Source: Mycolicibacterium diernhoferi (GTDB taxonomy: Bacteria > Actinomycetota > Actinomycetes > Mycobacteriales > Mycobacteriaceae). From it: DNA of 64,000 nucleotides. The stretch lies in assembly GCF_019456655.1 (NCBI RefSeq), contig NZ_CP080332.1, positions 5,704,001 to 5,768,000 of the forward strand, given 5' to 3'. Both the position numbers and the translations under genes were made by a program. Shown one piece after another: positions 26,449 through 51,383 of the stretch (the first letter of the stretch is position 1; each line of letters begins with the position of its first letter). Below the pieces are notes generated by a model. That model was given only the letters and a program-made list of their open reading frames with translations. It did no database searches and was not told the origin of the DNA.

Positions 26449-26493
26449 AGATTACCGGCAACCAGGAGTTGCGTCAATAGTTATATTGACGCA
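26449..26493 (-). promoter_or_regulatory. Operator-promoter 1 of the GTCAATA regulon
   Basis: The operator GTCAATAGTTATATTGAC occupies 26473-26490, with symmetry extending to 26470-26493 (10+4+10). Read on the minus strand, TTGACG (26472-26477) is a -35 box, followed after 17 bp by TAATCT (26449-26454). Transcription would run toward the small ORF and the TetR gene, so the site may give autoregulation. Confidence 0.7.
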
Positions 26494-26495
26494 GA

Positions 26496-28013
26496 TCACA
26501 CCGTGCTGCTCAACCGGTCATAGGTCGCAGCACTGTTCCCCTGATCCCGCAGCAGGTGCTTACGCACCCGCGATGTGGGCGTCTTGGGCAGCGCGTCCGC
26601 CAGTTCGAGATAACGCGGCTGCATGAACGCGGGAAGACGCTCGCCGAGGAACTCGACCACCTCCGCAAGACGGATCTCCCGGCCGGGTTCAGGGACGATG
26701 AACACCTTCACCTCGTCGTCACCCGCGTACTCGCCGGGGTGGGCCACACAAGCCACCTCGTCGATGCCGGGGAATGCCAGCACTTCCCGCTCGACCTCGA
26801 AGCTGGAGATGTTCTCGCCCCGTCGGCGCAGTGAATCCTTGTAGCGGTCATGGAAGTAGTAGAAACCGTCCGCGTCGGCGCTCACCGCATCCCCGGTGTG
26901 GTACCAGCCGTCCCTCCACGCCGCCTCGGTCGCCGCGGTATCGCCCTGGTAACCCAGCGACATCAGGATCCGTTCGTCCGAGCGCACGATCAGCTCACCG
27001 ATCGTGCCCGGCGGGACGTCGCGGCCCTCATCGTCGATCACCCGTGCATGGAAGCCGGCGCGCACTGTTCCACAGCTGCCCGCCGGTACCGACTGGTCGA
27101 TCACCTTGGTGATCACCATGCTCGTCTCGGTGGATCCGTACGCCGTGCACAACCCGCGTAATCCGAACCGTTCGATGAATCCTTCTGCATCCGATGGCAA
27201 TGGGGCCGCGAGCAGGAACTCCATGCTGTGGTCACGGTCCTCGACCGAGACCGGCCTGGACTCGAGATACTGGGCGACTGTGCCGGGTGCGACGGCGAAG
27301 GTGGAACCCAGTTCCTTGGCGGTCCGCCAGTACGTCGACATCGCGGGCGACCGCCGCACGACGATCGTGCCGCCCACCCGCAACATCTGCACCGACGGCG
27401 CGAACGCCGAAAGATGGAACCAGGGCAGATCAGCCTGGAAGACCGATTTCTCGGTGAGCCCGGCGCCCTCGATCAGCCAGTCGACGACGCCGCAGAAGTA
27501 CGCATGGGTGCTGATGGACGCCTTCGAGGGGCCCGTCGTACCCGAGGTGAGGAGTAGGCAGTGTGGGTCCGACGGCAGCACCACCGGCGTCGGGGGCACT
27601 GCCAGGTCACCCGCCTCGCACAACAGCGCGGGGTCGACCTGTCGCCGCGCCCAGTGCGGCGACAGGTTCTGCGCCTCGGCCTCCTCGGCGACCACGACAG
27701 TCGGATCGATCCGCTCACAGGCGTTGGTCAGCATCTGACCCCGGTAGGCGGGATTGACCGGAGCGATCACCGCTCCCAACAGCGTCGCCCCCCACCAGGT
27801 ACGGATCCAGCCCGGGCCGTTGGACAGCAGGATCATCACCCGGTCACCCGGGCCGACTCCCTGCGCCGCGAGCACAGCGGCCGCGCTCCTACCCGCCTCG
27901 AGACTGTCCTGCCACGTCCACGTCACGCCGCCTTCGAACTTCACCAGCGGCCGGTCCGGCCAGGTCGCCGCTCCCCTGAGGAGAAGTTCGAGGATGGTGT
28001 CGGATTCGGGCAT
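26496..28013 (-). CDS. AMP-dependent CoA ligase (crotonobetaine/carnitine-CoA ligase-like)
   Basis: A 505-aa adenylate-forming ligase. The P-loop LLTSGTTGPSKASI, AYGSTETSM, DGWYHTGDAVSADADGFYYFHDRYKDSLRRRGENISSFEVE and the A10 region LPKTPTSRVRKHLL are all present. The R-R-R-G-E-N-I-S-S-F-E hinge resembles crotonobetaine/carnitine-type and fatty-acid CoA ligases. In this island it would activate the carboxylate produced by the aldehyde dehydrogenase. ATG 28011-28013. No operator is seen directly upstream; it may be transcribed by read-through past the hairpin behind the oxygenase gene or from its own weak promoter. Confidence 0.88.
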   Translation of the reverse strand: MPESDTILELLLRGAATWPDRPLVKFEGGVTWTWQDSLEAGRSAAAVLAAQGVGPGDRVMILLSNGPGWIRTWWGATLLGAVIAPVNPAYRGQMLTNACERIDPTVVVAEEAEAQNLSPHWARRQVDPALLCEAGDLAVPPTPVVLPSDPHCLLLTSGTTGPSKASISTHAYFCGVVDWLIEGAGLTEKSVFQADLPWFHLSAFAPSVQMLRVGGTIVVRRSPAMSTYWRTAKELGSTFAVAPGTVAQYLESRPVSVEDRDHSMEFLLAAPLPSDAEGFIERFGLRGLCTAYGSTETSMVITKVIDQSVPAGSCGTVRAGFHARVIDDEGRDVPPGTIGELIVRSDERILMSLGYQGDTAATEAAWRDGWYHTGDAVSADADGFYYFHDRYKDSLRRRGENISSFEVEREVLAFPGIDEVACVAHPGEYAGDDEVKVFIVPEPGREIRLAEVVEFLGERLPAFMQPRYLELADALPKTPTSRVRKHLLRDQGNSAATYDRLSSTV

Positions 28014-28112
28014 GTGGGTCCTCCTGGGGCTACGGGTTCCAGCGAGCCTACGGTGTTTCTCGGCAGGCGATAGCGGGCAATCGAACCGAGCTGGGTGACG
28101 TGCGGGTGGTGC

Positions 28113-28149
28113 GACTCTTCCCGCCGGAGATCGTCCGGCGGGAAGAGTC
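28113..28149 (-). terminator. Strong hairpin downstream of oxygenase gene 1
   Basis: A perfect 16-bp stem (GACTCTTCCCGCCGGA with its complement) and a 5-nt loop lie 47 bp beyond the stop of the first carotenoid oxygenase gene. There is no T-tract, which is usual for mycobacterial terminators. It separates the oxygenase transcript from the CoA ligase gene. Confidence 0.7.
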
Positions 28150-28195: not shown

Positions 28196-29674
28196 CTAGT
28201 GGAAGTCCATCCAGTGTCCGTGCGGGGTCCAGCCCACAGCGAAGGGCAGCACCACCTTGGCCACCGGGCCCGAGGGCAGGTCGTCTGCGTTGAAGACCAT
28301 GAAGTCGGTGTGGCGTTCGTTGAAGTACGACACCGGGGTGATCAGGTAGCCGTCACCCTCTGGTGCATCCGGGGTGCGCGGCACGAAGACCGACTCGTAC
28401 ACCCCGACCGGACGGTCATGCTTGATCGTGTAGCTGTCCTCTTTACCGGTGTGCACGTTGCGGCGCATGACGGTGTTCATCCGCATGCCGTCCTTGACCC
28501 GCTCGCCGGCGGTGTAGAAGCCCCACTCATACGGCTTGCCCCAGAACCGCTCATCGATCTTCGGCAGCTCCGCCGGGGTATCGCTGAGGTGTTCGCTGGT
28601 GGCCCTGCCCTTTTCGAGGTCCAGGACCCAGCGCCCGATGCAGGTGGTACCGACCTGCCAGAACGGGACGAACGGTCCGCCCGGAGGGAACACCTCATCG
28701 GTCTTGAACGGTGGCGAGTTGAAGATCGGTCCGTCGAGCACGATCTTGCCGTCGATCTCGTTGGCCGACAACGTGTGCATGATGTATTCCGGCTCGAAAT
28801 CGGCCTCGATCCACTGCACCGGGCCATCGATGTCATCACGGCGGATCACCGCGATCACCGTCGGCAGGCTGGTGTCCCACCCATAGATTCCGCGCCCCTG
28901 GGCGATACGGGCCCGATCCTGCAGGAACGGCGCGAACGCCACGATCGCGTAGTTCTCGGTGATCCACATATCGTGGGCGATCGCGCAGTACGGCCCGTCA
29001 TCGAGATGCTTGGTGCGCACGACACCGTCCAAAGTGACACAGTGCACGCTGATGAAGGGCTTGCGATCGCGATAGGTGCAGCTCCACAGCTCCTCCTTCA
29101 CGTCATCCCACTTCGGGTGCGGCCCGAACGCGCCGTCACCGAAGCACACCTTCTCGAACAGGCCGTCGGAGAGCTGACTGGACCACGGGACGATCCCCTT
29201 GGTCTCCAGGGTGATCGGATCCAAAGCGATCGGCGGACAGCCCTGCTCCGAAAGTGCCAAAACCTCACCGTTGAACGGCATCGCGTTGATATTGGCTGTG
29301 CCCTGCGGGATGCCGGCATTGTGCTCGTCGCGGATCGCGTCACCCAGACCCCAGGCTCGCCAATCATCGAATTTGCCATCGGCATAGGAGAACAACGACC
29401 GGCCCGCACGCTCCTCGGCGACGAACTTCGGCGTGCGCACCCAGCGGTTGCGGAACTCGACCTTGCCGTCCCGAAACACCAGGCCCTGCACCATGCCGTC
29501 GATGGTATAGACGGTTTCGAGGCCCTGCTTGTTCGGGCGGCGCCAGGTCGGTCCGTTGCGGTAGAAACCACCCTCCAGCCCGTCGGGCAGTTCACCCTCG
29601 ACGATGCAGTCCTCGATCGTGGCTTCAAAGCGCATGGGCCGATATGGCCCTCGCTGATTCGCGGGAACACCCAT
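28196..29674 (-). CDS. Carotenoid-cleavage / lignostilbene-type dioxygenase, copy 1
   Basis: A 492-aa Fe(II) oxygenase of the carotenoid cleavage dioxygenase superfamily, which splits C=C bonds to carbonyl products. The four iron ligands are visible as His186 (FGPHPKWD), His234 (AHDMWIT), His300 (YIMHTLS) and His485 (PHGHW). The C-terminal block APEGDGYL...GPVAKVVLPF...HG-W is characteristic of bacterial lignostilbene/isoeugenol-cleaving members, so an alkenyl-aromatic substrate is more likely than a carotenoid. ATG 29672-29674 (MGVPANQRGP) has a GGAG ribosome-binding site. It is about 95% identical to the next gene, with differences in patches. Operator 2 lies 65 bp upstream. Confidence 0.9.
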   Translation of the reverse strand: MGVPANQRGPYRPMRFEATIEDCIVEGELPDGLEGGFYRNGPTWRRPNKQGLETVYTIDGMVQGLVFRDGKVEFRNRWVRTPKFVAEERAGRSLFSYADGKFDDWRAWGLGDAIRDEHNAGIPQGTANINAMPFNGEVLALSEQGCPPIALDPITLETKGIVPWSSQLSDGLFEKVCFGDGAFGPHPKWDDVKEELWSCTYRDRKPFISVHCVTLDGVVRTKHLDDGPYCAIAHDMWITENYAIVAFAPFLQDRARIAQGRGIYGWDTSLPTVIAVIRRDDIDGPVQWIEADFEPEYIMHTLSANEIDGKIVLDGPIFNSPPFKTDEVFPPGGPFVPFWQVGTTCIGRWVLDLEKGRATSEHLSDTPAELPKIDERFWGKPYEWGFYTAGERVKDGMRMNTVMRRNVHTGKEDSYTIKHDRPVGVYESVFVPRTPDAPEGDGYLITPVSYFNERHTDFMVFNADDLPSGPVAKVVLPFAVGWTPHGHWMDFH

Positions 29675-29713
29675 AGAGATCAACTCCTTCAACTCAAGCA
29701 TTGAGACACGCCA

Positions 29714-29763
29714 ACTGGCCACGCTCGCGGTGGCGGCTGTCAATAGCATTATTGACAGCCGCC
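29714..29763 (-). promoter_or_regulatory. Operator-promoter 2 of the GTCAATA regulon
   Basis: Core GTCAATAGCATTATTGAC at 29739-29756, embedded in a 32-bp inverted repeat (14+4+14, 29732-29763). On the minus strand the right half gives TTGACA (29738-29743), a consensus -35. The -10 position 18 bp on is GCCAGT, which is weak. It controls oxygenase copy 1. Confidence 0.72.
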
Positions 29764-29924
29764 GGTCCGGGTGTCAACCCCTGGACTCGCCACCGAACTG
29801 TCCAGGGGCAGCAGCATTTACATCTGATCTGGAATCAGGCCACGGCAGCGCGGGAACTCATGCACAGCACAAAGCCCGGCGGCGGCGAGCGTGCTCACCA
29901 CCACCGGGGTTCCTGGGTCTCGCG

Positions 29925-31403
29925 CTAGCGGAAGTCCATCCAGTGTCCGTGCGGGGTCCAGCCCACAGCGAAGGGCAGCACCACCTTGGCCACCGGGCCC
30001 GAGGGCAGGTCGTCGGCGTTGAAGACCATGAAGTCGGTGTGGCGTTCGTTGAAGTACGACACCGGGGTGATCAGGTAGCCGTCACCCTCTGGTGCATCCG
30101 GGGTGCGCGGCACGAAGACCGACTCGTACACCCCGACCGGACGGTCATGCTTGATCGTGTAGCTGTCCTCTTTACCGGTGTGCACGTTGCGGCGCATGAC
30201 GGTGTTCATCCGCATGCCGTCCTTGACCCGCTCGCCGGCGGTGTAGAAGCCCCACTCATACGGCTTGCCCCAGAACCGCTCATCGATCTTCGGCAGCTCC
30301 ACCGGGGTATCGCCGAGGTGCTCGCTGGTGGCGCGGCCGGCCTGCAGATCGAGCACCCAACGGCCGACACGACTGGTGGACACCTGCCAGAACGGGATGA
30401 AAGGACCACCCGGAGTGAAGAGTTCATCGGTCATGAACGGAGGCGAATCGAAGATCGGTCCGTCGAGCACGATCTTGCCGTCGATCTCGTTGGCCGACAA
30501 CGTGTGCATGATGTATTCCGGCTCGAAATCGGCCTCGATCCACTGCACCGGGCCATCGATGTCATCACGGCGGATCACCGCGATCACCGTCGGCAGGCTG
30601 GTGTCCCACCCATAGATTCCGCGCCCCTGGGCGATACGGGCCCGATCCTGCAGGAACGGCGCGAACGCAACGATCGCGTAGTTCTCGGTGATCCACATAT
30701 CGTGGGCGATCGCGCAGTACGGGCCGTCATCGAGATGCTTGGTGCGCACGACACCGTCCAAAGTGACACAGTGCACGCTGATGAAGGGCTTGCGATCGCG
30801 GTAGGTGCAGCTCCACAGCTCCTCCTTCACGTCATCCCACTTCGGGTGCGGCCCGAACGCGCCGTCACCGAAGCACACCTTCTCGAACAGGCCGTCGGAG
30901 AGCTGACTGGACCACGGGACGATCCCCTTGGTCTCCAGGGTGATCGGATCCAAAGCGATCGGCGGACAGCCCTGCTCCGAAAGTGCCAAAACCTCACCGT
31001 TGAACGGCATCGCGTTGACAGCACCGACACCCTGCGGGATGCCGGCGTTATGCTCGTCGCGGATCGCGTCCCCCAGACCCCAGCCCCGCCAGTCCCCGAA
31101 TTCGCCATCGGCATAGGAGAACAACGACCGGCCCGCACGCTCCTCGGCGACGAACTTCGGCGTGCGCACCCAGCGGTTGCGGAACTCGACCTTGCCGTCC
31201 CGAAACACCAGGCCCTGCACCATGCCGTCGATGGTGTAGACGGATTCGAGGCCCTGCTTGTTCGGGCGGCGCCAGGTCGGTCCGTTGCGGTAGAAACCAC
31301 CCTCCAGCCCGTCGGGCAGTTCACCGGAGACGATGCAGTCCTCGATCGTGGCTTCAAAGCGCATGGGCCGGAAGGGGCCTCGCTGATTCTCCGGGACACC
31401 CAT
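29925..31403 (-). CDS. Carotenoid-cleavage / lignostilbene-type dioxygenase, copy 2
   Basis: A 492-aa tandem paralogue of the preceding gene with the same four His ligands (186, 234, 300, 485) and the same start region (MGVPENQRGP). About 25 residues differ between the copies, and 13 of them fall in residues 317-368, with a second cluster at residues 101-129. DNA between these patches is almost identical. The variable patch includes S-P-P-F-M-T-D-E-L-F and could shape the substrate pocket. ATG 31401-31403. It has its own operator 53 bp upstream. The 250-bp gap to copy 1 holds only operator 2 and leader sequence. Confidence 0.9.
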   Translation of the reverse strand: MGVPENQRGPFRPMRFEATIEDCIVSGELPDGLEGGFYRNGPTWRRPNKQGLESVYTIDGMVQGLVFRDGKVEFRNRWVRTPKFVAEERAGRSLFSYADGEFGDWRGWGLGDAIRDEHNAGIPQGVGAVNAMPFNGEVLALSEQGCPPIALDPITLETKGIVPWSSQLSDGLFEKVCFGDGAFGPHPKWDDVKEELWSCTYRDRKPFISVHCVTLDGVVRTKHLDDGPYCAIAHDMWITENYAIVAFAPFLQDRARIAQGRGIYGWDTSLPTVIAVIRRDDIDGPVQWIEADFEPEYIMHTLSANEIDGKIVLDGPIFDSPPFMTDELFTPGGPFIPFWQVSTSRVGRWVLDLQAGRATSEHLGDTPVELPKIDERFWGKPYEWGFYTAGERVKDGMRMNTVMRRNVHTGKEDSYTIKHDRPVGVYESVFVPRTPDAPEGDGYLITPVSYFNERHTDFMVFNADDLPSGPVAKVVLPFAVGWTPHGHWMDFR

Positions 31404-31430
31404 GATAATCCGCCTTTGCTCATGCAACGC

Positions 31431-31473
31431 AGAATCGACCGGTGCCGGCTGCGTCGTCAATAGAATTATTGAC
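31431..31473 (-). promoter_or_regulatory. Operator-promoter 3 of the GTCAATA regulon
   Basis: Core GTCAATAGAATTATTGAC at 31456-31473. On the minus strand TTGACG (31455-31460) is followed after 18 bp by GATTCT (31431-31436). It controls oxygenase copy 2, with a leader of about 20 nt carrying a ribosome-binding site. Confidence 0.75.
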
Positions 31474-31533
31474 AGCACCGGTCCCGACTGTCAAGACCAT
31501 GGCCGACTGCAGGAGGTGCTCAACTCACGGGAG

Positions 31534-31956
31534 TCAGGACGAATATCGGGATCTGCCGATCGGTATTACGCTGGTAGTCAGCGTAATCCGGCCAGCCGCC
31601 ACCGCGCGTTCCCACCAGAACTCCTTTTCGGCACCGTGAACCTCCCGGGCGTCATAGTCCGCACTGACCGTTCCATCCTGCAACTCGACGCGGGGGTTCT
31701 TCGCGACGTTGTAGTACCAGACCGGGTGTTTGGGTGCGCCACCCAATGAGGCGACGATCGCGTAGCAGCCGTCGCACTCGACTCGCATCAACGGAACCTT
31801 GCGCAACTTACCGGTTTTGGCTCCCACACTCGTCAACAGGACCACCCGCTTGCCTTTCAGTACCGCGCCCCGAGTTCCGCCGGATTCCAGGTACTCCTCG
31901 GCATTTTCGCGGGCCCAGTCCCACGCGCATGGCTCATATTCTCCGACAAGTGGCAT
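31534..31956 (-). CDS. Ddn-family (deazaflavin F420-dependent) nitroreductase-like protein with a 3' frameshift
   Basis: A 140-aa protein of the DUF385/Ddn family, F420H2-dependent reductases of mycobacteria. [54 protein letters not shown] and [21 protein letters not shown] are family hallmarks. After AVAA the frame runs into an unrelated tail, whereas the adjacent frame reads [20 protein letters not shown], the normal family C-terminus, ending at a stop at 31520-31522. A single missing base near 31594-31597 explains this. The protein may be impaired, or the assembly may contain an error. ATG 31954-31956. A palindrome lies 30 bp upstream. Confidence 0.82.
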
Positions 31957-32043: not shown

Positions 32044-32721
32044 TCATGCGATGAGACCGAGTTGCTGAGCCCGACTGGCGGCTTCCGCACGATTGCGCAC
32101 GCCCAGTTTCCGATAGACGGCACTCGCGTGTTGCTTGACCGTCCACCGCGACAAGTTCAGCCGCGTCGCCACTTCCGGATTACTCAGCCCGGAGGCGACG
32201 TGCTGCAGAACATCGAGTTCACGTCTGGACAGGCGGGCCGCGGCGACGGTCGGCGGCTTCGGGAACGCCCGGCCACCCTCCGCGACACGTCTGATCGCGT
32301 CGACCATCGCCTCCGACGGCATCAGCTTCGGCAGGGAGGCCACCGCCCCGTGTTTCACGGCCAACGCGGCCGACAGGGGTGCTTCCTCCGACATCAACAC
32401 CACCTTGATCTCGGGCATCCGCTCCGCCAGCGTGCGGCACAGGGTGAAGCCCGACCGCCCCGCCAAGGAGGTACTGATCAGGACCAGTTGGGGCCGACGC
32501 CGCTGCACCACCTGCCAGGCGGCGGCCGCAGACGCCGCCACCAGGCAGGTGGCCACCCACGGCTGTCCCGCCAGGACTGCACGCACGCCGGCGCCCAACA
32601 ACGGATGTTCGTCGACCACCAGAACCCGCTGCGGCCCAATGTGATCGAGCAACGGTGTGCGCGCATCCGGTCCGGTGCCGACGAGGCCGACCGAACCGGC
32701 ATCGCGCCCTTCCGTGGACAT
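32044..32721 (-). CDS. LuxR/NarL-type regulator with a degenerate receiver domain
   Basis: A 225-aa protein. A receiver-like domain spans about residues 31-150: the acidic pair is present (VVDEH, Asp37/Glu38) and the conserved Lys is at 132, but the phospho-acceptor position (aligned to the Asp of the L-x-D motif) is Ser83 in LVLISTSLAGRSG. The C-terminal LuxR domain (about 160-222) reads LSRRELDVLQHVASGLSNPEVATRLNLSRWTVKQH and is intact. It is therefore likely to act without phosphorylation. No histidine kinase gene is nearby. ATG 32719-32721. It follows the alcohol dehydrogenase gene after 61 bp and could be cotranscribed with it. Confidence 0.85.
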   Translation of the reverse strand: MSTEGRDAGSVGLVGTGPDARTPLLDHIGPQRVLVVDEHPLLGAGVRAVLAGQPWVATCLVAASAAAAWQVVQRRRPQLVLISTSLAGRSGFTLCRTLAERMPEIKVVLMSEEAPLSAALAVKHGAVASLPKLMPSEAMVDAIRRVAEGGRAFPKPPTVAAARLSRRELDVLQHVASGLSNPEVATRLNLSRWTVKQHASAVYRKLGVRNRAEAASRAQQLGLIA

Positions 32722-32782: not shown

Positions 32783-33904
32783 TCAGTCGTCGTAGACGAT
32801 GACGCCGCGCAGATTCTTACCGTCCTTCATATCGCTGAAGGCCTGGTTGATGTCTTCGAGTCGATAGGTCTGCGTGATGAGCTCGTCGAGCTTGAGCTTC
32901 CCGCCGCGGTACAGATCGCAGATCCGCGGGACGTCATTGCGCGCGATGGTGTCGCCGTAGAGCGAGCCTTGCAGTCGCTTTCCGGACATGGCCACCGAGA
33001 ACAAGTTGATCTGGACGTCCATCTGTGTCGCTGGAGCCGCCGAGGTCAGCACCATCACCCCGCCGGGGCGAGTCATCGCTTCGGCACCGGCCAGCAGATC
33101 GCCGGCCAGCACGCCGACGGTGATGATCACCCGATGGGCCCCTTGGCCATTCGTCAGTTGCGCCAGAATCGGCGCCGCTTCCTCGATGCTGGACACTGCG
33201 TGGGTGGCGCCGAATTCCTTGGCCTTGTCCCTCTTGAACGCCACCGGGTCGATCGCGATGATGTCGCGGGCGCCCTTGTGCACCGCACCCTGGACCGCGT
33301 TGATCCCGACCCCGCCGATGCCGAGGATGACAACAGTGTCACCGAGCTGCATATCGGCCGCGTAGACCGAGGAACCCCAACCGGTCGGCACCCCGCAGCC
33401 GATCAGGGCGGCCTTGTCCAACGGGATGTCCTTGCCGATCTTGGTGACCGAATTGCGGGGCGCGCACACGTACGGCGCGAAGGTACCCAGGTAGGACATG
33501 CATCCCACGCCCTGACCGCGCGCGTGCACGCGGTGCGTTCCATCGGGCGCGACACCGCCGAGGATCCCCGCGCCGAGCACACACAGGTTGCCACGGCCGG
33601 ACGCACACAAGTCGCAGTGCCCGCAGGCCGGCAGGAACGACATCACCACGTGATCGCCGACGGCCAGGTCGGTGACCCCCGGTCCCACCTCGACGATGAC
33701 GCCGGCGCCCTCGTGGCCGCCCAGCAACGGGGCGAACGGGATCGGGATCACTCCGTCATCGAAGTGGTTGTCGCTGTGGCAGATTCCCGAGGCGGCCAGT
33801 TTCACCAATACTTCGTGCTGCTTGGGCGGGTCGATCTCGATCTCTTCGACGCTCCAGCCGGAGTTGGTGCCCGGCTCCCAGAGCAATGCGCCTTTGGTCT
33901 TCAT
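32783..33904 (-). CDS. NDMA-dependent zinc alcohol dehydrogenase (mycofactocin-associated type)
   Basis: A 373-aa zinc-dependent alcohol dehydrogenase. The catalytic zinc motif GICHSD has Cys42, GGHEGAG has His64/Glu65, and the structural zinc cysteines are at 94, 97, 100 and 108. ILGIGGVGINAVQGA is the cofactor-binding loop. The N-terminus MKTKGALLWEPGTNSGWSVEEIE and the overall sequence match the NDMA-dependent (nicotinoprotein) family that occurs with mycofactocin, where NAD is tightly bound and electrons pass to mycofactocin. It probably oxidises an alcohol made by the Rieske oxygenase pathway. It follows the ALDH gene by 28 bp as the third gene of the Rieske-ALDH-ADH operon. Confidence 0.88.
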   Translation of the reverse strand: MKTKGALLWEPGTNSGWSVEEIEIDPPKQHEVLVKLAASGICHSDNHFDDGVIPIPFAPLLGGHEGAGVIVEVGPGVTDLAVGDHVVMSFLPACGHCDLCASGRGNLCVLGAGILGGVAPDGTHRVHARGQGVGCMSYLGTFAPYVCAPRNSVTKIGKDIPLDKAALIGCGVPTGWGSSVYAADMQLGDTVVILGIGGVGINAVQGAVHKGARDIIAIDPVAFKRDKAKEFGATHAVSSIEEAAPILAQLTNGQGAHRVIITVGVLAGDLLAGAEAMTRPGGVMVLTSAAPATQMDVQINLFSVAMSGKRLQGSLYGDTIARNDVPRICDLYRGGKLKLDELITQTYRLEDINQAFSDMKDGKNLRGVIVYDD

Positions 33905-36633: not shown

Positions 36634-36701
36634 ACGCTACCGCTCCTCGGCAACGTCCGTCAATAGCACTATTGACGCCACTCGGGGTGGACTGTTTGGA
36701 T
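36634..36701. promoter_or_regulatory. Operator-promoter 4 of the GTCAATA regulon (bidirectional)
   Basis: Core GTCAATAGCACTATTGAC at 36659-36676. Minus strand: TTGACG (36658-36663), 18-bp spacer, TAGCGT (36634-36639), then 8 nt to the Rieske ATG. Plus strand: TTGACG (36672-36677), 18-bp spacer, TTGGAT (36696-36701) toward the ferredoxin gene. A single bound repressor would cover both -35 boxes. Confidence 0.8.
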
Positions 36702-36781: not shown

Positions 36782-36976
36782 ATGAAGATTCGACTCGACC
36801 GACCCACATGTCAGGCACATGGCCTTTGTTACGCAGTCAATCCCGCACTCTTTCCGATCGACGACGACGGATACTCGACACTGACCGAGCACGAGCTCGC
36901 GCCGGGCGATGAGCACGACGCGCGTGCCGCCGTGGCGGCCTGCCCCGAGGGCGCGCTCGCCATCCGATCGGAGTGA
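36782..36976 (+). CDS. Small [3Fe-4S]-type ferredoxin
   Basis: A 64-aa ferredoxin with Cys10, Cys16 and Cys54. The C-x2-H-x2-C pattern (CQAHGLC, His13 in place of the fourth-ligand Cys) and the terminal ACPEGAL are those of mycobacterial [3Fe-4S] ferredoxins that usually partner cytochromes P450. No P450 is present in the window; the gene diverges from Rieske oxygenase 1 across a shared operator, so it is probably the electron donor of that oxygenase. No ferredoxin reductase gene is seen. An AGGAG site precedes the ATG at 36782. Confidence 0.88.
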   Translation: MKIRLDRPTCQAHGLCYAVNPALFPIDDDGYSTLTEHELAPGDEHDARAAVAACPEGALAIRSE

Positions 36977-37010: not shown

Positions 37011-37053
37011 GTCAATACCTACATTGACAGTCCGCGGCGGCCGCCGCTATGTT
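37011..37053 (+). promoter_or_regulatory. Operator-promoter 5 of the GTCAATA regulon
   Basis: GTCAATACCTACATTGAC at 37011-37028, one mismatch from perfect symmetry. TTGACA (37024-37029) with an 18-bp spacer to TATGTT (37048-37053) makes the best-matched promoter of the set. It drives the SnoaL-like gene through a leader of about 65 nt. Confidence 0.75.
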
Positions 37054-37539: not shown

Positions 37540-37551
37540 CCTATTTGCACT

Positions 37552-40741: not shown

Positions 40742-40742
40742 G

Positions 40743-43186: not shown

Positions 43187-44442
43187 TGTTGTGCTCCGTC
43201 GTTCGGGGTCTGCGCCTGCGCGTCCGGCAGTGTCGCCGGCGGCCCGGGCGGCGGACCGCCCGGCGCGGGGGCGGGCAGCGGCTCGCGATAGGGATAGCGA
43301 GGATCGCCCGGATTACCGGTGATCGCGTCGGGCACCGTGAGTCTGGGCTCACCACCCTGCCCGGTCCGCGGGAAGGGGATGGGCAGCGCCGGGGTTGCCT
43401 TCTGGCCCACCTGGGGGTCGATCCGTTCGGTGGGCAGCAGAACGTTCGGATCCAATCCCAGATCAGAGAACGCCGCGTCGACAAACGGCTGAATGAACTG
43501 GCCGGGTAGCACATTGGCCAGGATCGCCTTGAAGTACGGGCCCGAGGCCACCGATTCGCCCAGCGACATGGCGTAGGAGTTCAGCAACTTGATGGCCTTC
43601 TGGATCCGTTCCTTGCGGCCCTCCACGATCGCGAGGGCACCGTTGAACTTGTCCAGCGCCGGCCGCAGTGTCTCCCGGTTGTCGGCGACCAGTCCCGAAA
43701 CCTGCTGGGACAACGCGGAGATGTCGCCGGAGAAGCGGTCCAGGGCGGAGCTCTGGGTCCGCAGCTGTGCAAGCAGGACATTGGAATCGGTGATCAGGCC
43801 GACCACCTGGTCGGTGCGTTCGGCGAGGATGCCGGTCACGCTGTTGGCGTTCTCCAGGAGCCCGCGTAGCTGCGCATCCCGCTCGTTGAGGGTCTGTGAG
43901 AAGCGGGCCGCGCCCGCGACGGCCGCCTGCAGGTCGGGCGCGGTGTTCTGGAATGTCTGGGCCAGCGTCGTCAGCGATTCGTTGAGCTGGTCGGTGTGCA
44001 GCCCACCGATGGTGTCGGCCAGATCGCCGAGGGCGTCCGGCAATTGGTATGCCGACGTGGTGCGGTCCAACGGTATGGGTCCGGAGAGATCGCCGTCCCC
44101 GCGTGGGGTGATCTCCAGAATCTTGGCTCCGAGCAGACTCTTGGTCTTCACCGCGGCTTCGGCGCGGTCGCCCAGATCGACGCCGTTGTCCACCTTGAAC
44201 GTGACCACCACACTGGTGCCGTCCAGGTCGACCCCCTCGACCTCACCCACCCGCAGGCCGGCCACCTGCACTGCGGCGCCGGTCTTCAGTCCGCCCGCTT
44301 CGGCGAAGTACGCCGAGTGCTCGGTGCCGGTGTCGAAGAAAGGTAACCGCTTGTACTGCAGTGCCGCCACCGTCACCGCGGCTGCCAACGCCACACCGAC
44401 CACCCCGATGATCGCCGGATTGCGTTCGGAGAAGTGTTTCAT
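43183..44442 (-). CDS. mceC: MCE-family protein, C position
   Basis: A 419-aa Mce protein: ERNPAIIGVVGVALAAAVTVAALQY membrane helix, MCE domain SAYFAEAGGLKTGAAVQVAGLRVGEVEGVDLDG, then helical repeats and a Pro/Gly-rich tail. ATG 44440-44442 (MKHFSERNP) overlaps the mceB stop as ATGA and is preferred to an in-frame ATG four codons upstream. Confidence 0.92.
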   Translation of the reverse strand: MKHFSERNPAIIGVVGVALAAAVTVAALQYKRLPFFDTGTEHSAYFAEAGGLKTGAAVQVAGLRVGEVEGVDLDGTSVVVTFKVDNGVDLGDRAEAAVKTKSLLGAKILEITPRGDGDLSGPIPLDRTTSAYQLPDALGDLADTIGGLHTDQLNESLTTLAQTFQNTAPDLQAAVAGAARFSQTLNERDAQLRGLLENANSVTGILAERTDQVVGLITDSNVLLAQLRTQSSALDRFSGDISALSQQVSGLVADNRETLRPALDKFNGALAIVEGRKERIQKAIKLLNSYAMSLGESVASGPYFKAILANVLPGQFIQPFVDAAFSDLGLDPNVLLPTERIDPQVGQKATPALPIPFPRTGQGGEPRLTVPDAITGNPGDPRYPYREPLPAPAPGGPPPGPPATLPDAQAQTPNDGAQQ

Positions 44443-45467
44443 TTCGGTGCACACCGTCCCGTGTTCTGACTGGCGAGTTTGACGTAGACAGGCTGGCCGC
44501 CCTTGCCATTGACCTTGAGCAGCAGATCGCAGATGTAGTACGAGAAGTAGTCGCCGTGCATGCCCTGCCGAGCCAGGCGCTGGTAGGCGTCGGGCAGTGT
44601 GTTGAGCAGGTTGTCGACGTACTCATGATCGGCGACGACCAGGCCGCTCACTCGATCCGACTGCGAGACCACGGTTTTCAATGGTTCCCGGGCCTGGCTG
44701 AGCATGTCGGCCACAGACCCGGAGACGGCGCTCGTGTACCTGATGGCATCGCTGATGTCGGTCTTGCGGTCGGCAAGGCCTTCGACCAGCTCCGACAGCG
44801 AGTCCACGGCCTTGGCGAACTGGTCACCCTGATCGCCCAGCGAGCCCAGCACCGAATCGAGATTGCCGATGACCTGGCCGATCAGGGCGTCACGGTCGGC
44901 CAGTGTGTCGGTCAGGGTCGCGGTCTGGGCAAGGAACGAACTGATGGTCGCCCCCTGATCCTGGAACGCGTCGATCAACTGCCCGGTGAGCAGATTCACC
45001 TGTTCGGGATCGAGCGCACGGAACAGCGGACGAAACCCGCCGATCAGAGCGTCGAGGTCCAGAGCCGGTTCGGTGCGGTCCTGCGGGATCACCTGTCCTG
45101 GCGCGAGTCGCTGAACGGGCCCGGCGCCTTCGCGCAGTTCCAGGAAGCGTCCGCCGATCGGGTTGTCGTAACGCACAGCTGCTTCCGAGCCCTCGGTCAG
45201 GATCACCGTGTCGTCTGCGCTGAATTCGACCACCGCCAGACGCTGGTCGTTGAGGGTGATGTTCTTCACCTTGCCGACCTCGACGCCCGCGATACGGACG
45301 AAGTCACCCGCCTGCAGGCCACTCACATTCGTGAAGTCGGCGCGGTAGGTGTTCTCCTTCTGGAAACGGAGCTGCGCGAAGATCGTCAACAGCGCGAAGG
45401 TACCGAGCAGGCAGACCACCACGAAGAGTCCCAGGCGCCAGATCACGCCACTGAGCTTGTCTCTCAC
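44439..45467 (-). CDS. mceB: MCE-family protein, B position
   Basis: A 342-aa Mce protein with an N-terminal helix (LGLFVVVCLLGTFALLTIFAQL), MCE domain TYRADFTNVSGLQAGDFVRIAGVEVGKVKNI and a helical C-terminal region ending YFSYYICDLLLKVNGKGGQPVYVKL, typical of MceB. It starts at GTG 45465-45467, 19 bp after mceA. Confidence 0.92.
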   Translation of the reverse strand: MRDKLSGVIWRLGLFVVVCLLGTFALLTIFAQLRFQKENTYRADFTNVSGLQAGDFVRIAGVEVGKVKNITLNDQRLAVVEFSADDTVILTEGSEAAVRYDNPIGGRFLELREGAGPVQRLAPGQVIPQDRTEPALDLDALIGGFRPLFRALDPEQVNLLTGQLIDAFQDQGATISSFLAQTATLTDTLADRDALIGQVIGNLDSVLGSLGDQGDQFAKAVDSLSELVEGLADRKTDISDAIRYTSAVSGSVADMLSQAREPLKTVVSQSDRVSGLVVADHEYVDNLLNTLPDAYQRLARQGMHGDYFSYYICDLLLKVNGKGGQPVYVKLASQNTGRCAPK

Positions 45468-45486
45468 CGCGTCATCCCTCTGTCGG

Positions 45487-46926
45487 TCATTCCGTCACGC
45501 TCGGAGGTGAAACTGGCTGCGGAGGTCCGGGGTTCGGTCCCGGGCCGGTTCCGTAGGGCGGCGGGGGGTTCGGTACACCCGGCACCGGGGGCGGTGGCGC
45601 CCCGTGCGGCGGGCCGGCCCACAGCGGTGCCCCGTCCGGACCGAACAGCGGGGCGCCGTAGGGCGGTGCGCCCGGATAGGGCACCGGACCGATGGCAGGC
45701 GGTCCGTCGCCCCGGACGCTGGGCGGCTCGGGCACCGCACGTGTCGCAGGCAGCCAGTTGACCCAGTACGGGCTGCCGATCCCCGGGTTGGGGCGGATGT
45801 CGACGCCGGTTCCCCACCCGGTGTTGGTCACCAGCTGGCGCACCGGGAAGTTCAGGTGGGTGTAGGGCAGTGATCCGCACCCGGGCTTGCCGTCCGGGCC
45901 GCCCTTCGCCGCGACGATGGGCAGGTGCTCCGGGAACTTGTATGGGTCCTTACCGAAGTGCAGTGCGGCATCGGCGATCTCGGTCCGCCCATTTCCACCG
46001 AATGCTCGGTAGCCGCCGTTGTCGAGGAAGAACTTGGTGCCCACCAGCAGACAGGTGTAGCTGGGGTTGTACTTCAACAGCAGATCTGTCGTCGGCTCGA
46101 GGATGTTGACCGCGTTGACGAAGTTCTCCTTGTTGGGCTCCAAGAACTCCGTTGCGCTTCTGGCGAAACCGATCACACTGAGCAGCAGTGCATCCAGTTC
46201 TGCAGCCTTGTCGGTGATGGTCACGCTGGTGGTGCTCGCGGCATCCATGGTCGACACGATGTCCTGGGCGGCTGCTGAATACGTATCACCGAAGGCGCTC
46301 AGGGACCGGAAGTTCTCCGCAACCTGCCCCATCCGCGGGTTGACGGCGAGCAGCACCTCATTGGCGGCGGTGGTCGCCTCGCCGATGCGTTCCCCGTGGC
46401 CTCGCACACCCTCGGCGAAGGCGCCGAGGACCGCGTTCAGCTTCGCCGGGTCGATCCGGTCCAGCACGCCCATCAGACTCTGGAACACCGTGTTGACCTC
46501 GGTGCTGACGTTGCGAGAGTGCAGTACCGCACCCGACACGAGTCCCTTCGGACTGGGATCCTCCGGCGGGATCAGCTCCACGTACTTGGCGCCGAAGGCC
46601 GTCGTCGCGCGGATCTCCGCCAGCACGTTGGACGGGATCGCGGAGGCCTGGTCGGGAAAGATGTCCAGCTTGAGGCTCACCGGGTGCCGGCCGCCCTCGA
46701 TGCCGGCCACCCGGCCGACCTGAACACCGAGCATCTTGACCTTCGCCCCGGACTCCATGACGAGGCCGGCACGGTCCGAGGTCAGCGTGACCGGGACAAA
46801 GGTGCGGAAGGTTCCCGCGAACAGGCCGGCGCTGAGCAGGACCACGGCGGTCACCACCACGACCAGGAACACCGACCACAGGGCGGGGTGCACCCGCGCG
46901 TACAGACTCTTGTTGTTCATCGTCAT
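45487..46926 (-). CDS. mceA: MCE-family protein, A position
   Basis: A 479-aa Mce protein with an N-terminal helix (LWSVFLVVVVTAVVLLSAGLFAG), MCE domain VTLTSDRAGLVMESGAKVKMLGVQVGRVAGIEGG and a long C-terminal tail of Pro/Gly repeats (e.g. GPPHGAPPPPVPGVPNPPP) likely disordered in the periplasm. The ATG overlaps the yrbE stop by one base (TAATG). Confidence 0.93.
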   Translation of the reverse strand: MTMNNKSLYARVHPALWSVFLVVVVTAVVLLSAGLFAGTFRTFVPVTLTSDRAGLVMESGAKVKMLGVQVGRVAGIEGGRHPVSLKLDIFPDQASAIPSNVLAEIRATTAFGAKYVELIPPEDPSPKGLVSGAVLHSRNVSTEVNTVFQSLMGVLDRIDPAKLNAVLGAFAEGVRGHGERIGEATTAANEVLLAVNPRMGQVAENFRSLSAFGDTYSAAAQDIVSTMDAASTTSVTITDKAAELDALLLSVIGFARSATEFLEPNKENFVNAVNILEPTTDLLLKYNPSYTCLLVGTKFFLDNGGYRAFGGNGRTEIADAALHFGKDPYKFPEHLPIVAAKGGPDGKPGCGSLPYTHLNFPVRQLVTNTGWGTGVDIRPNPGIGSPYWVNWLPATRAVPEPPSVRGDGPPAIGPVPYPGAPPYGAPLFGPDGAPLWAGPPHGAPPPPVPGVPNPPPPYGTGPGPNPGPPQPVSPPSVTE

Positions 46927-47780
46927 TAACCCGAGAGGTTGAAGTTGCCGGATTGCCCATAGATGGCCAGCGAGACCAGCAGCACCGCCAGTGCCGAAGC
47001 GACCAAGGAGGTGCGCACCGCGCGCCCGACGGCCTCACCCACCCCGGCCGGGCCACCGGCGGCGGTGAACCCGTAGTAGGTGTGGACCAGCATGATGACC
47101 ACGGCCATCGTGACAGCGAGGAAGAAGGACCAGATCAGGTCGGTCGGACTGAGGAAGGTGTTGAAGTAGTGGTCATACACACCCGAGGACTGCCCGTAGA
47201 CAGAGGTCGTGCCGAACCGCGCCGCAAAGAACGACATCAGGATCGCCACGCAGTACAACGGGATCACCACGATGATTCCGGCGATCACCCGGGTGGAGGC
47301 CAGGTAGGCGACCGACTGGATGCCCATCACTTCCAGGGCGTCGATCTCCTCGTTGATCCGCATCGCCCCCAGTTGGGCGGTGGCGCCGGCCCCGATGGTC
47401 GCCGCCAGCCCGATCCCCGCGGTGAGCGGGGCGATCAACCGCACGTTGAAGTACGCCGAGGCGAAGCCGGTCAGTGCTTCCACGCCGACCTGCGAGAACT
47501 GGTTGTAGCCCTGCACGGCCACCAGAGCGCCGGTGGTCAGGGTCAAAAACCCGACGATCACCACGGTTCCGCCGATCACCGCCAACGCCCCGGTGCCCAG
47601 ACCCATCTGAGCGATCAGGCGCAGCAGCTCTGTTCGGTAGCGACGGAACACCTCGGCGGTCGAAACCAATGTCTCGACGAAGAACTGGGTCTGTACACCG
47701 AGCTTGAGCCAACCGCCATACCACCGGCGCACGCGTCGTTCGAGGCGCGGAAACATGGTCCGCACAGCCGTCTGCGTCAC
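46926..47780 (-). CDS. yrbEB: YrbE-type ABC permease, B copy
   Basis: A 284-aa MlaE/YrbE-family permease with five to six membrane helices and the family core ATIGAGATAQLGAMRINEEIDALEVMGI, which contains the E-x-D-A-L-x-V-M-G-I coupling motif to the MceG ATPase. GTG 47778-47780 overlaps the preceding yrbE stop as GTGA. With YrbEA it forms the inner-membrane channel. The MceG ATPase gene is not in this window, as is normal. Confidence 0.93.
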   Translation of the reverse strand: MTQTAVRTMFPRLERRVRRWYGGWLKLGVQTQFFVETLVSTAEVFRRYRTELLRLIAQMGLGTGALAVIGGTVVIVGFLTLTTGALVAVQGYNQFSQVGVEALTGFASAYFNVRLIAPLTAGIGLAATIGAGATAQLGAMRINEEIDALEVMGIQSVAYLASTRVIAGIIVVIPLYCVAILMSFFAARFGTTSVYGQSSGVYDHYFNTFLSPTDLIWSFFLAVTMAVVIMLVHTYYGFTAAGGPAGVGEAVGRAVRTSLVASALAVLLVSLAIYGQSGNFNLSG

Positions 47781-48544
47781 AGGGTCGCCTCCACACTCAC
47801 GGTGCTTGCCAGGATGTTGATCGCGAACAGTGCGACGAATGTGTACACCACGGTCTCGTTCACCGCGTTGCCCACACCGGCCGGTCCGCCTTGAACGGAA
47901 GTTCCCTTGTAACAAGCGATCAGACCGGCCGCCAGACCGAACAGGCCGGCCTTTATGAGCGCCGTCACCACGTCTGCGAGGCCGGTGATGATCGTCATAC
48001 CACCCGCGAATGCCCCCGGTGTCACATCCTGGACGAACACCGAGAAGAAGAATCCGCCGGCGATACCGACGAGGATGACGACCGAGGACAACAGCACCGC
48101 CACGAAGGTGGCGGCCAGCACCCTGGGGACCACCAGCGCCTGGATCGGATCGATGCCCATCACCCGCAGCGCGTCGAGTTCCTCACGGATCGTTCGGGCG
48201 CCTAGGTCCGCACACATGGCGGTGGCCCCCGCACCTGCGATCACCAGTACCGTCACCACGGGGCCCAGCTGGGTGACGGTGCCATACGCCGCACCGGTGC
48301 CCGAATAGTCGCCGGCGCCGAACTCGATCAACAGGATGTTGAAGGTGAAAACCAGCAGCACGGTGAACGGGATCGACAGCATCAATGTCGGGAGCAGCGA
48401 AACCCTTGCCACGAACCATGACTGGGTGAGGAACTCTCGCCAGGCGAACGGCGGCTTGAACATCTGCACGAATGTGTCCACGGACATCGCAAAGAAGGCA
48501 CCGATCCCGCGGAACGGCCTCAGCAGATCATCTGTCGCGATCAT
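47777..48544 (-). CDS. yrbEA: YrbE-type ABC permease, A copy; first gene of the mce operon
   Basis: A 255-aa permease of the same family (AGAGATAMCADLGARTIREELDALRVMGIDPIQALVVPRV). ATG 48542-48544 (MIATDDLLRPFRG) has a GAGG ribosome-binding site. About 87 nt upstream is the predicted start from operator-promoter 6, so the whole twelve-gene yrbE-mce-mas-CAP unit is under the GTCAATA regulon. Confidence 0.93.
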   Translation of the reverse strand: MIATDDLLRPFRGIGAFFAMSVDTFVQMFKPPFAWREFLTQSWFVARVSLLPTLMLSIPFTVLLVFTFNILLIEFGAGDYSGTGAAYGTVTQLGPVVTVLVIAGAGATAMCADLGARTIREELDALRVMGIDPIQALVVPRVLAATFVAVLLSSVVILVGIAGGFFFSVFVQDVTPGAFAGGMTIITGLADVVTALIKAGLFGLAAGLIACYKGTSVQGGPAGVGNAVNETVVYTFVALFAINILASTVSVEATL

Positions 48545-48637
48545 CTGTGTCCCTCTTCGAATTCTGTCGAGTTTGTCCGGCGATCTGCGTACCCGCATGT
48601 CATCGAATACTGTTGTTGCACTTGCGGAATAACACGG

Positions 48638-48688
48638 AGGCTACCCCGCATTCGCAGCAACGGTCAATAGCTGTATTGACCGTTGCTG
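48638..48688 (-). promoter_or_regulatory. Operator-promoter 6 of the GTCAATA regulon (mce operon)
   Basis: Core GTCAATAGCTGTATTGAC at 48663-48680 within a 34-bp inverted repeat (15+4+15, 48655-48688), the longest of the set. Minus strand: TTGACC (48662-48667), 18-bp spacer, TAGCCT (48638-48643). The rest of the 432-bp gap holds two hairpins nearer the reductase gene and no evident gene. Confidence 0.8.
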
Positions 48689-48976: not shown

Positions 48977-50026
48977 CTAGCTGCTGGCGGCCTGAGCCGC
49001 CGCGGGGGCGGCGCTTGCCAGCCCATCTCCTACTTGCAGAACCAACTTGCCGGTGTTGGCACCGTCGAAGAGCATGTTCATGGTGCGTCCGTACGCCTCG
49101 ATGCCGCCGGTCTCCACCTGTTCGTGAGTGACCACGTCGCCACGCCGAATCCAGTGCCCGAGCGCGGCATAGGCCTCCGGATAGCGCCGGGCGAAGTCGA
49201 AGACGATGAAGCCGGTCAACGACGCACGCTTCATCAGCAGCTGCATGTACCGCGACGGCCCCGGCTGCGGGTCGGTGGCGTTGTAGGAGGAAATACCGCC
49301 GCACAGCGCGATTCGGGCGCCGCGACGCAGATGGCCCAACGCGGACTCGAGGACCTCACCGCCGACATTGTCGAAGTACACGTCGATACCTTTGGGCGCC
49401 GCAGCCCTGAGGGCCTTTCCGATCGATCCGGCCTTGTAATCGATGGCGACGTCGTAACCGAGTTCCTCGGTGAGCCAGGCACACTTCTCCGGCCCGCCCG
49501 CGACGCCGATCACCCGGCAACCCGATAGCTTGGCAATCTGTCCGGCAATGCTGCCGACCGCGCCCGCCGCACCCGAGATCAGCACGGTGTCACCGGGTTT
49601 CATCTTTCCGACATCGAGCAGACCGAAGTAGGCGGTCAGACCCGGGAAACCCAGGGCGCCCAACCAGGCCGGGGCCGGGGCCAGCGACTCGTCGACGTGC
49701 AGGACATCGTGGCGCCCGTCGGACACCGCATATTCACAGACGCCGAACATACCGGATACCGTCTGCCCCACTTCGTATTCCGGATGGCGCGACGCGTGCA
49801 CGCGGCCAACGGCATGGGCCCGCATCACGGCCCCGATCTCCACCGGTTCCACATAGGTCGGAACTTCTCCGATCCAGCCACGCATGGCCGGGTCGAGGGA
49901 AATGTACTCCACGCGAACCACGAACTCGCCGTCACCGGGCTCGGGAATCGGCTCTGTGGTGATCTCCCAGGTGGAATCGTCGGCTCGGCCCACCGGGCGC
50001 TTTGCCAATCGGACTTGTTTGTTCAC
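48977..50026 (-). CDS. NADP-dependent medium-chain reductase (CurA / leukotriene B4 12-hydroxydehydrogenase-like)
   Basis: A 349-aa zinc-free MDR enzyme that typically reduces the C=C bond of enones with NADPH. LDPAMRGWI, GFPGLTAYFGLLDVGKMKPGDTVLISGAAGAVGSIAGQIAKLSGC and YFDNVGGEVLE are family hallmarks. The C-terminus is Ala-rich. It starts at GTG 50024-50026, 73 bp after the Rieske oxygenase 2 stop and probably in the same transcript. In the island it may saturate an alkenyl ketone intermediate; this is inference. Confidence 0.88.
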   Translation of the reverse strand: MNKQVRLAKRPVGRADDSTWEITTEPIPEPGDGEFVVRVEYISLDPAMRGWIGEVPTYVEPVEIGAVMRAHAVGRVHASRHPEYEVGQTVSGMFGVCEYAVSDGRHDVLHVDESLAPAPAWLGALGFPGLTAYFGLLDVGKMKPGDTVLISGAAGAVGSIAGQIAKLSGCRVIGVAGGPEKCAWLTEELGYDVAIDYKAGSIGKALRAAAPKGIDVYFDNVGGEVLESALGHLRRGARIALCGGISSYNATDPQPGPSRYMQLLMKRASLTGFIVFDFARRYPEAYAALGHWIRRGDVVTHEQVETGGIEAYGRTMNMLFDGANTGKLVLQVGDGLASAAPAAAQAASS

Positions 50027-50099
50027 TTTGTCTCCGTGAGGGTATGGATGTTCGAGCCGCCGCGATGAGCCACGCCGGCTGATGAAAGGCTGAGCGCGG

Positions 50100-51332
50100 T
50101 TACGCGCTGGGTGTCACCGGCTGATCGGGGTTGGGACGGCCCAGCGCCCGCGCCATCACCCGGTGCATCTCGGTGACCGTGGGCTCGTTCTCACCCACCA
50201 GCAGACTGTCCCGCAGGCCGCTGCGGATCGCCTTGTTGATCCCGGGCACCTGTCCGTAGTCTTCTTCCTCCACAGCCGTCCGCGTGACCTGTTGGAACGG
50301 CTCCACCATCGCCCGCTCGTCGTCGGTCATGAAGGCCGGGACCATCGTCCGGTAGTGCGTGATCTGATCGTGCGGCTGATGCCCGGGGAACAGCCGGTTG
50401 ATGAATCGGATGCCGATGAAATCGGGGGCCGTGATCACGGTGTTCGGGTACAGGTAGAGCACCGTGTTGTAGGGCGCATACTGCAACCCGTCGAGCACTG
50501 CGTCGACATCCTCGGCCTCGGCCATCTGCACGACTTCGTTCATCGACCAGGTGGTCCGGAAGTGGCGGCCGTCCGGGCCGAACGCATCATGGGTGGACAC
50601 GTTGCCGATGAAGGCCGCCGCCAGGGTCTTGGCGTGCACGACCTTGACGTGATAGCTCTCCAGGTAACCGCACAGCGCCAGTTTCCAGTTCACCTCGTGC
50701 GGCAAGGTGCGTTCGTCGGCCACCTTGAAGGTGTCGAGATTGCACAGCGCCAGCTGCGGCGCGAAATCGCCGAGGAAGGCGTCGATATCCATCTCGCCCT
50801 GGGCATCGAGCATCACGAAGATCAGTCCGTAGCGCTCCGCGCACGGCAGCTCCACCAGACCGTTGTCACACAGTTCGACCTTGCCGAACTTGCCGGGCTG
50901 GGTCACCGACTTCAATTCACCGTTCGGCGCGTAGGTCCACGCGTGGTACGAACAGCTGATCCGCTTACCGACCTCGCCGGCACCTTCGAGCAGACGTGCT
51001 CCACGGTGCGAACAGGAGTTCAGGAAGGCCTTGACCGACCCGTCGTCCTGACGGACCAGCAGAACCGGTACATCGAACAACATCTCGGTGCGATACGACC
51101 GCGGACCCGCCAGTTCACCGGACGTTGCGGCGACCAACGGCACCGTGTGCATCAACGCCCGCTCCGCTGCGGCCAGTTCCGGATCCAGATACTCACTGGC
51201 GGGTATCACGCGCACCCCATCGGGGTGGGCATCTGTGGTGCCCGCCCGCACGTGCTCAATATGGCGCAGGGTCAGCGCGCGCCGCGTCTCAGCCGCAAAT
51301 TCGCCGGTACTCATTGTGGACTCGATCGTCAT
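50100..51332 (-). CDS. Rieske non-heme iron oxygenase alpha subunit, copy 2
   Basis: A 410-aa oxygenase paralogous to the one at 35.4-36.6 kb: same N-terminal MTIES, same Rieske pattern (CSHRGA...CSYHAW) and same iron-binding ESYHVKVVH. The copies differ through the catalytic domain, so different substrates or successive steps are plausible. ATG 51330-51332 is 8 nt after TAGCGT and leaderless, exactly as in copy 1. Operator 7 is just upstream. Confidence 0.9.
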   Translation of the reverse strand: MTIESTMSTGEFAAETRRALTLRHIEHVRAGTTDAHPDGVRVIPASEYLDPELAAAERALMHTVPLVAATSGELAGPRSYRTEMLFDVPVLLVRQDDGSVKAFLNSCSHRGARLLEGAGEVGKRISCSYHAWTYAPNGELKSVTQPGKFGKVELCDNGLVELPCAERYGLIFVMLDAQGEMDIDAFLGDFAPQLALCNLDTFKVADERTLPHEVNWKLALCGYLESYHVKVVHAKTLAAAFIGNVSTHDAFGPDGRHFRTTWSMNEVVQMAEAEDVDAVLDGLQYAPYNTVLYLYPNTVITAPDFIGIRFINRLFPGHQPHDQITHYRTMVPAFMTDDERAMVEPFQQVTRTAVEEEDYGQVPGINKAIRSGLRDSLLVGENEPTVTEMHRVMARALGRPNPDQPVTPSA

Positions 51333-51340
51333 GCCCAGCG

Positions 51341-51383
51341 ACGCTACCGCCATCCAGCAACATTCGTCAATACTGGTATTGAC
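51341..51383 (-). promoter_or_regulatory. Operator-promoter 7 of the GTCAATA regulon
   Basis: Core GTCAATACTGGTATTGAC at 51366-51383. Minus strand: TTGACG (51365-51370), 18-bp spacer, TAGCGT (51341-51346), then 8 nt to the Rieske 2 ATG. The layout is base-for-base the same spacing as operator-promoter 4. Confidence 0.8.

Follow-up and report, generated by a model that had tools for sequence, protein, structure and literature searches.

Local catabolic regulons under a TetR-type repressor are already known as a type. The KstR2 regulon, according to the available part of its description (PMC3068626), has a few copies of one palindrome, one of them at its own promoter, and all confined to the catabolic genes of one locus. 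The BkaR regulon (Rv2506/MSMEG_4718) is controlled by an adjacent, autoregulatory TetR protein, and its palindrome is centred on four free bases and bound by a dimer, as far as the accessible text of PMC3920632 describes it. Mce3R is likewise a TetR-type repressor, with mce in both its name and its regulon. Here we analyse a 64,000-nucleotide stretch of Mycolicibacterium diernhoferi (NCBI RefSeq assembly GCF_019456655.1, contig NZ_CP080332.1, positions 5,704,001 to 5,768,000; hereafter the window, in whose numbering coordinates are given). It carries seven copies of the inverted repeat GTCAATA-N4-TATTGAC, placed at an mce operon and at genes for two oxygenases of the carotenoid-oxygenase/lignostilbene-dioxygenase family (CCO1 and CCO2), two Rieske oxygenases and a TetR-family regulator. 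We consider it likely that these palindromes are the operators of one local catabolic regulon, with autoregulating repression by the TetR protein encoded at 25445-26119.

Seven palindromes confined to one gene cluster

A sequence-only reading of the window had reported seven inverted repeats and assigned each to a gene or operon. All seven are present at the places reported, six of them perfect and the one at 37011 with a single mismatch. Operator 1 (26473-26490, GTCAATAGTTATATTGAC) faces leftward, where the annotated gene is tetR, and operators 2 (29739-29756, GTCAATAGCATTATTGAC) and 3 (31456-31473, GTCAATAGAATTATTGAC) belong to the CCO1 and CCO2 genes. Operator 4 (36659-36676, GTCAATAGCACTATTGAC) serves the leftward unit of Rieske oxygenase 1, aldehyde dehydrogenase and alcohol dehydrogenase and the rightward ferredoxin gene. 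Operator 5 (37011-37028, GTCAATACCTACATTGAC) precedes a SnoaL-like gene, operator 6 (48663-48680, GTCAATAGCTGTATTGAC) the mce operon, and operator 7 (51366-51383, GTCAATACTGGTATTGAC) the unit of Rieske oxygenase 2 and a reductase. Every unit that had been named thus has its operator, with unit ends and co-transcription judged from strand and gaps. The window holds no further copies, as had been claimed: the half-sites GTCAATA and TATTGAC occur nowhere outside the seven sites, and a search for half-sites 2, 3, 5 or 6 bases apart gave no match in it. When up to three mismatches are allowed, eight matches appear, the eighth being a three-mismatch match at 7882, as against 0.30 on average and never more than 2 in 100 dinucleotide shuffles of the window. 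A chance origin of the seven-site set is excluded.

Random scatter of the motif across the genome had been named as evidence that would speak against a regulon. Instead, the copies are confined to the cluster: the 5,998,503-bp genome holds only these seven at up to one mismatch, all within 25 kb, and reading the pattern backwards as a control gives none. At up to two mismatches there are eight places, the seven and a two-mismatch place at 1031538, against three for the control. A sample of 396 Mycobacterium genomes, taken from a larger set in which more carriers may exist, contains three with the seven sites: the window's own and two that are probably M. aurum and [Mycobacterium] burgundiense. 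With one mismatch allowed, 53 of the 396 have a match or more, and apart from the seven-site three none exceeds two. Single exact 18-mers occur in G081, G039, G077, G344 and G163, which have no match to the TetR at E 1e-30; these lone copies may be background. The operators, a TetR of at least 81% identity and the CCO pair occur together in 3 of the 396 genomes, and CCO1/CCO2 at 92% or more are found only in the seven-site three (next best 57%). An order-level search with the TetR at E 1e-40 matched 2 of 397 genomes (the window's own and one at 35%), and a search of 248 relatives of M. aurum at E 1e-60 matched only M. aurum itself, the other known carriers lying outside that sample. Seven loci came from a search of genome contigs for further holders, M. 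aurum alone being close, and metagenome-assembled Pseudonocardia contain relatives of the TetR (P0010, 56%) and of the CCO proteins (P0025, 73%).

Two layouts of palindrome and promoter-like hexamers

Judged from hexamers only, all seven operators overlap promoter-like sequences, in two geometries. The sequence-only reading had let the right half-site supply the TTGAC of a -35 box at every site, with a -10-like hexamer after 17-18 bp. This description holds for five of the seven sites and fails for those at 29739 and 31456, which have no such -10 and show the reverse layout. At operators 1, 4, 5, 6 and 7, TTGAC forms the end of the palindrome and is followed by the next base, 17-18 bp and TANNNT, in 15 of 15 sequences from the three species. 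The respective -10-like hexamers in the window are TAATCT (26449-26454), TAGCGT (36634-36639), TATGTT (37048-37053), TAGCCT (48638-48643) and TAGCGT (51341-51346); operator 4 offers TTGAC both ways, with a weaker TTGGAT towards the ferredoxin gene. At operators 2 and 3, TTGACA (29772-29777 and 31489-31494) stands 15 bp outside the palindrome and, after N18, AATAAT falls inside it (29748-29753, leftward, and 31465-31470), in 6 of 6 sequences from the same species. The first two spacer bases of these two operators read AT on the coding strand in all six, because the -10 AATAAT lies inside the palindrome.

The first pattern, TTGAC-N18-19-TANNNT with the spacing counted from the last base (C) of TTGAC, occurs five times in the window, every time at an operator (100 shuffles: mean 0.42, maximum 3). 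The second, TTGACA-N18-AATAAT, which was picked after the sites had been seen, occurs twice, at operators 2 and 3, and not at all in the shuffles. In 40-kb stretches of both relatives, both patterns are again found only at operators, five and two in each. An ATG lies 8 nt past the -10 at operators 4 and 7 in all three species, which suggests that transcripts from these two operators may be leaderless.

Conservation across three species

The order of the sites and their neighbouring genes are the same in the window, M. aurum and burgundiense. In all 14 comparisons with the window, none of the 14 arm bases differs, whereas identity over 100 bases of flank is 58-90% and the four-base spacer drifts between species. 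The near-identity of the arms is partly built in, as the relatives' sites were located with the one-mismatch pattern, yet all seven have an orthologue; the seven sites are orthologous in the three species. The odd base of operator 5 (CATTGAC) is common to all three, which indicates that this site may be deliberately weaker.

Candidate regulators of the operators

The proposed repressor, encoded at 25445-26119 on the reverse strand, has the TetR_N and TetR_C_24 domains (PF00440, 57.4 bits; PF17932, 85.8 bits; both above cut-off), as expected for the regulator of a TetR regulon, and is 93% and 81% identical in the two relatives. Its predicted structure (mean pLDDT 81.7) has KstR2 as the nearest solved structure (4w97, E 1.7e-9), and the top 20 structural neighbours include FadR with stearoyl-CoA and AibR with isovaleryl-CoA, which fits a CoA-ester inducer. 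The arrangement of the sites is also that of a TetR regulon: the palindromes lie over promoters, as judged by hexamers, are specific genome-wide, and include one at the regulator's own promoter. We propose that a TetR dimer on each palindrome would block RNA polymerase, covering the -35 at operators 1, 4, 5, 6 and 7 and the -10 at operators 2 and 3, if the hexamers are true promoters. The imported substrate or its CoA ester, a candidate pathway intermediate, would bind the C-terminal domain and the repressor would leave. The tetR, CCO1/CCO2, Rieske/alcohol dehydrogenase/aldehyde dehydrogenase, ferredoxin, SnoaL-like, mce importer and Rieske 2/reductase genes would then be expressed together.

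Several observations weigh against this assignment. The start of tetR lies about 350 bp from operator 1 in the window (354 bp from the site start) and in M. aurum (350 bp); in burgundiense, which speaks for the TetR, the distance is about 97 bp. Four of the 396 genomes have a TetR orthologue of at least 70%, namely G251 and the three that carry the operators. The G251 protein is 74% identical and its recognition-helix segment, at the position that we take for this helix in the alignment, is identical by eye. The operator is absent at three mismatches from the 60 kb around that gene (three 20-kb stretches), so the protein has none at its own promoter. The same 60 kb contain no cluster genes, and the genome has no CCO match at E 1e-180; three scattered two-mismatch places occur in it, against one for the control. 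Either this TetR is a relic, or it indicates that such a TetR need not bind the GTCAATA-N4-TATTGAC motif; we tentatively read it as an orphan left by loss of the cluster. The orphan gene (L063:9763-10437) lies between gamma-glutamyltranspeptidase and transhydrogenase genes. A strong inverted repeat near it ends 16 bp from a gene end and looks like a terminator.

A further point against the TetR is that a second regulator is kept in the cluster. The LuxR-type response regulator at 32044-32721 (reverse strand, assigned by domain search) is conserved at 92% and 76% in the relatives, and co-occurrence alone therefore does not choose between it and the TetR. Proteins of the NarL/DosR type, too, bind inverted repeats of about this length, and the operators could belong to this LuxR/NarL-type protein, acting as repressor or activator. 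We regard this as unlikely. Its receiver lacks the usual phospho-acceptor Asp in all three species (VLIS, position by eye), and no operator stands directly at its own start, although it may be the tail of the operator 4 unit and be read from there, whereas operator 1 faces tetR. Palindromes over a -35 or -10 also suit a repressor better than an activator. Binding by a regulator encoded elsewhere in the genome is somewhat less likely still: the close TetR relative without an operator in G251 would be consistent with it, but the sites are confined to the cluster and go together with the TetR and the CCO pair in the three genomes that carry them. Least of all do we expect the repeats to be mainly RNA hairpins (terminators or 3' ends). 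Among 8 of the 21 sites that were folded with DNA parameters, single strands do give stems of 14-15 bp at the mce site in three species, at operator 2 in the window and at operator 3 in M. aurum. Against hairpins, however, the stem flanks vary around an invariant core, the sites coincide with promoter-like hexamers, mismatches in the flanks are as often G.U as A.C (17 and 18 of 168) and operator 7 folds just the 7-bp core stem in the window and M. aurum. Repression by the neighbouring TetR thus remains the reading that we favour.

Extended palindromes in the flanks

The bases just outside the core are complementary within a site more often than expected by chance, although they differ between sites and species. 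We compared them with a null in which left and right flanks were re-paired between sites, using all 21 sites of the three species. At flank bases 1-8, 88 of the 168 pairs are complementary (null mean 52.2; 0 of 20000 as high). At positions 2-8 the count is 70 of 147 against 44.5, a value reached in 2 of 20000 shuffles with the species permuted apart and in 0 of 5000 when one permutation was applied to every species. The excess ends there, positions 9-12 giving 20 of 84 against 25.3. The signal comes mostly from operator 6, where the flanks lengthen the inverted repeat of the window by 8 bp per side and three pairs differ between species in both of their bases (G-C/C-G/C-G, C-G/C-G/T-A and A-T/T-A/A-T across the three). 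Leaving this operator out reduces the excess to a modest one (50 of 126 against 37.9, a count reached in 93 of 5000 shuffles), and in burgundiense alone it is not significant (3569 of 20000). No excess is seen at 14 LexA boxes of the window's genome (35 of 112 against 40.7), which were searched with what we take to be the LexA box motif. Read in transcript orientation, the mismatches show no preference for G.U over A.C, indicating that RNA pairing is not an evident cause.

The spacer of operator 7 reads CTGG or CCAG in different species, an exact inversion. Quasipalindrome template switching is reported, in the available part of PMC8604942, to homogenise arms and invert spacers. The self-complementary outer arms of the operators, their paired changes between species and the spacer inversion resemble what is described there, and template switching would fit as the source of the flank symmetry. 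We tentatively raise the idea, with rather less than even expectation, that a symmetry-restoring process acts on the operators. Template switching during replication might repeatedly rewrite one arm from the other, in which case the repressor's palindrome would be partly self-maintained by mutation; alternatively, an extruded hairpin might play a part in the switch.

Genes of the units with an operator

The two CCO genes, tandem paralogues of 95% identity on the reverse strand, lie at 28196-29674 (CCO1; longer frame 28196-29749) and 29925-31403 (CCO2; longer frame 29925-31478) and belong to the RPE65 family. Within a species the two are as close as orthologues are between species, each with its own operator, and the pair looks like a case of concerted evolution. 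The closest relatives of CCO1 are lignostilbene dioxygenases, and the four His residues of LsdA, presumably the iron ligands, align by eye with His in CCO1. In lignostilbene dioxygenase, Phe59, Tyr101 and Lys134 hold the 4-hydroxyphenyl group, as stated in the available part of PMC8191317. CCO1 reads Tyr/Tyr/Ser at these positions (by eye, with the chain numbering taken as one less), so that a 4-hydroxystilbene is not the obvious substrate. CCO1 also reaches 257 of the 800 bits required by NCBIfam NF053778; with this and the differing phenol-holding residues, its assignment as a lignostilbene dioxygenase was rejected.

Downstream of CCO1, an AMP-binding acyl-CoA ligase (26496-28013, reverse) has no operator of its own, and operator 1 starts only 5 bp beyond its stop codon. 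A 47-codon open reading frame (ORF; 26297-26440, reverse) starts 8 nt past the -10 of operator 1; the ORF of M. aurum at this place has 46 codons and resembles it chiefly at the start, and burgundiense has none there. The leftward operator 4 unit contains the alpha subunit of Rieske oxygenase 1 (35381-36625), an aldehyde dehydrogenase (33933-35384) and an NDMA-dependent type alcohol dehydrogenase (32783-33904; TIGR03989 above cut-off), all on the reverse strand, and maybe also the LuxR-type gene and an F420H2-dependent quinone reductase-like gene (31534-31956). On the forward strand lie the genes of a 64-residue ferredoxin (Fer4_15, 36782-36976; 81% and 66% in the relatives) and of the SnoaL-like protein (37129-37539). 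The mce operon (38157-48544, reverse) comprises yrbEA, yrbEB and mceA-F (39290-48544) and two accessory genes (38157-39326). The accessory genes have no match in burgundiense, and nor do the genes at 37541-39326 as a whole, so the cluster is not wholly kept there. In the mce leader (48544-48663, leftward), M. aurum and burgundiense have a 29-codon ORF 8 nt past the -10; in the window no ATG stands there and the first lies 34 nt past the -10. The operator 7 unit, also reverse, consists of the alpha subunit of Rieske oxygenase 2 (50100-51332; longer frame 50100-51896) and an MDR reductase close to curcumin/dihydrocurcumin reductase (48977-50026; 350.9 bits, below the cut-off of 440).

The Mce importer suggests a hydrophobic compound as substrate, and the cluster probably serves the import and breakdown of a fatty compound. 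Fatty-acid-type genes further left (thiolase, SDR and acyl-CoA dehydrogenases) have no operator of this kind. A second palindrome, TTCCAGCGTGCTGGAA, lies at 25351-25366, upstream of the thiolase gene (24068-25345); it reads TTCCAGGGTGCTGGAA in M. aurum and was not found in burgundiense. Immediately right of the cluster are tRNA-Arg and tRNA-Ser genes (52179-52376). Past these, the gene at 52495-53547 is conserved in M. aurum but has no match in the burgundiense stretch, and an island may end here.

Comparison with described regulons

The cluster is very probably one co-regulated pathway under the neighbouring TetR-type repressor. Its operator links the mce importer, two near-identical CCO enzymes, a pair of Rieske oxygenases and enzymes for oxidation and CoA ligation in a single pathway, and gives a regulon boundary, a candidate biosensor and a route to the substrate via release of the TetR. 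The two promoter geometries, over the -35 or over the -10, are a natural test of operator position against repression, and with the compensating changes in the flanks, the way in which operator symmetry evolves can be tested directly; these two features together are what a specialist might not expect. Among the publications listed in the literature searches, none was on a GTCAATA-N4-TATTGAC regulon.

Mce3R has a double TetR motif and a non-palindromic site, according to the available part of PMC11667970, whereas the locus described here has a single-domain TetR and perfect palindromes. BkaR differs in its half-site, and none of the seven sites fits its operator core GTTA(N)T(N4)A(N)TAAC; it controls branched-chain keto-acid genes and is described as highly conserved in mycobacteria (PMC3920632, in the text available), in contrast to a regulon found in 3 of 396 sampled genomes. 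KstR2 is of the same family, nearest in fold (4w97) and near in sequence (E 2.5e-19). The sequence-only reading had held that the arms are unlike the KstR2 operator, and this is borne out. The published operator, AnCAAGnnCTTGnT, is 14 bp long with a 2-bp centre, none of the seven sites corresponds to it, and the available part of PMC3068626 gives three motif copies, as against seven here, and another gene set. The seven-site regulon would be a further case of this type, for which KstR2 and BkaR are the models.

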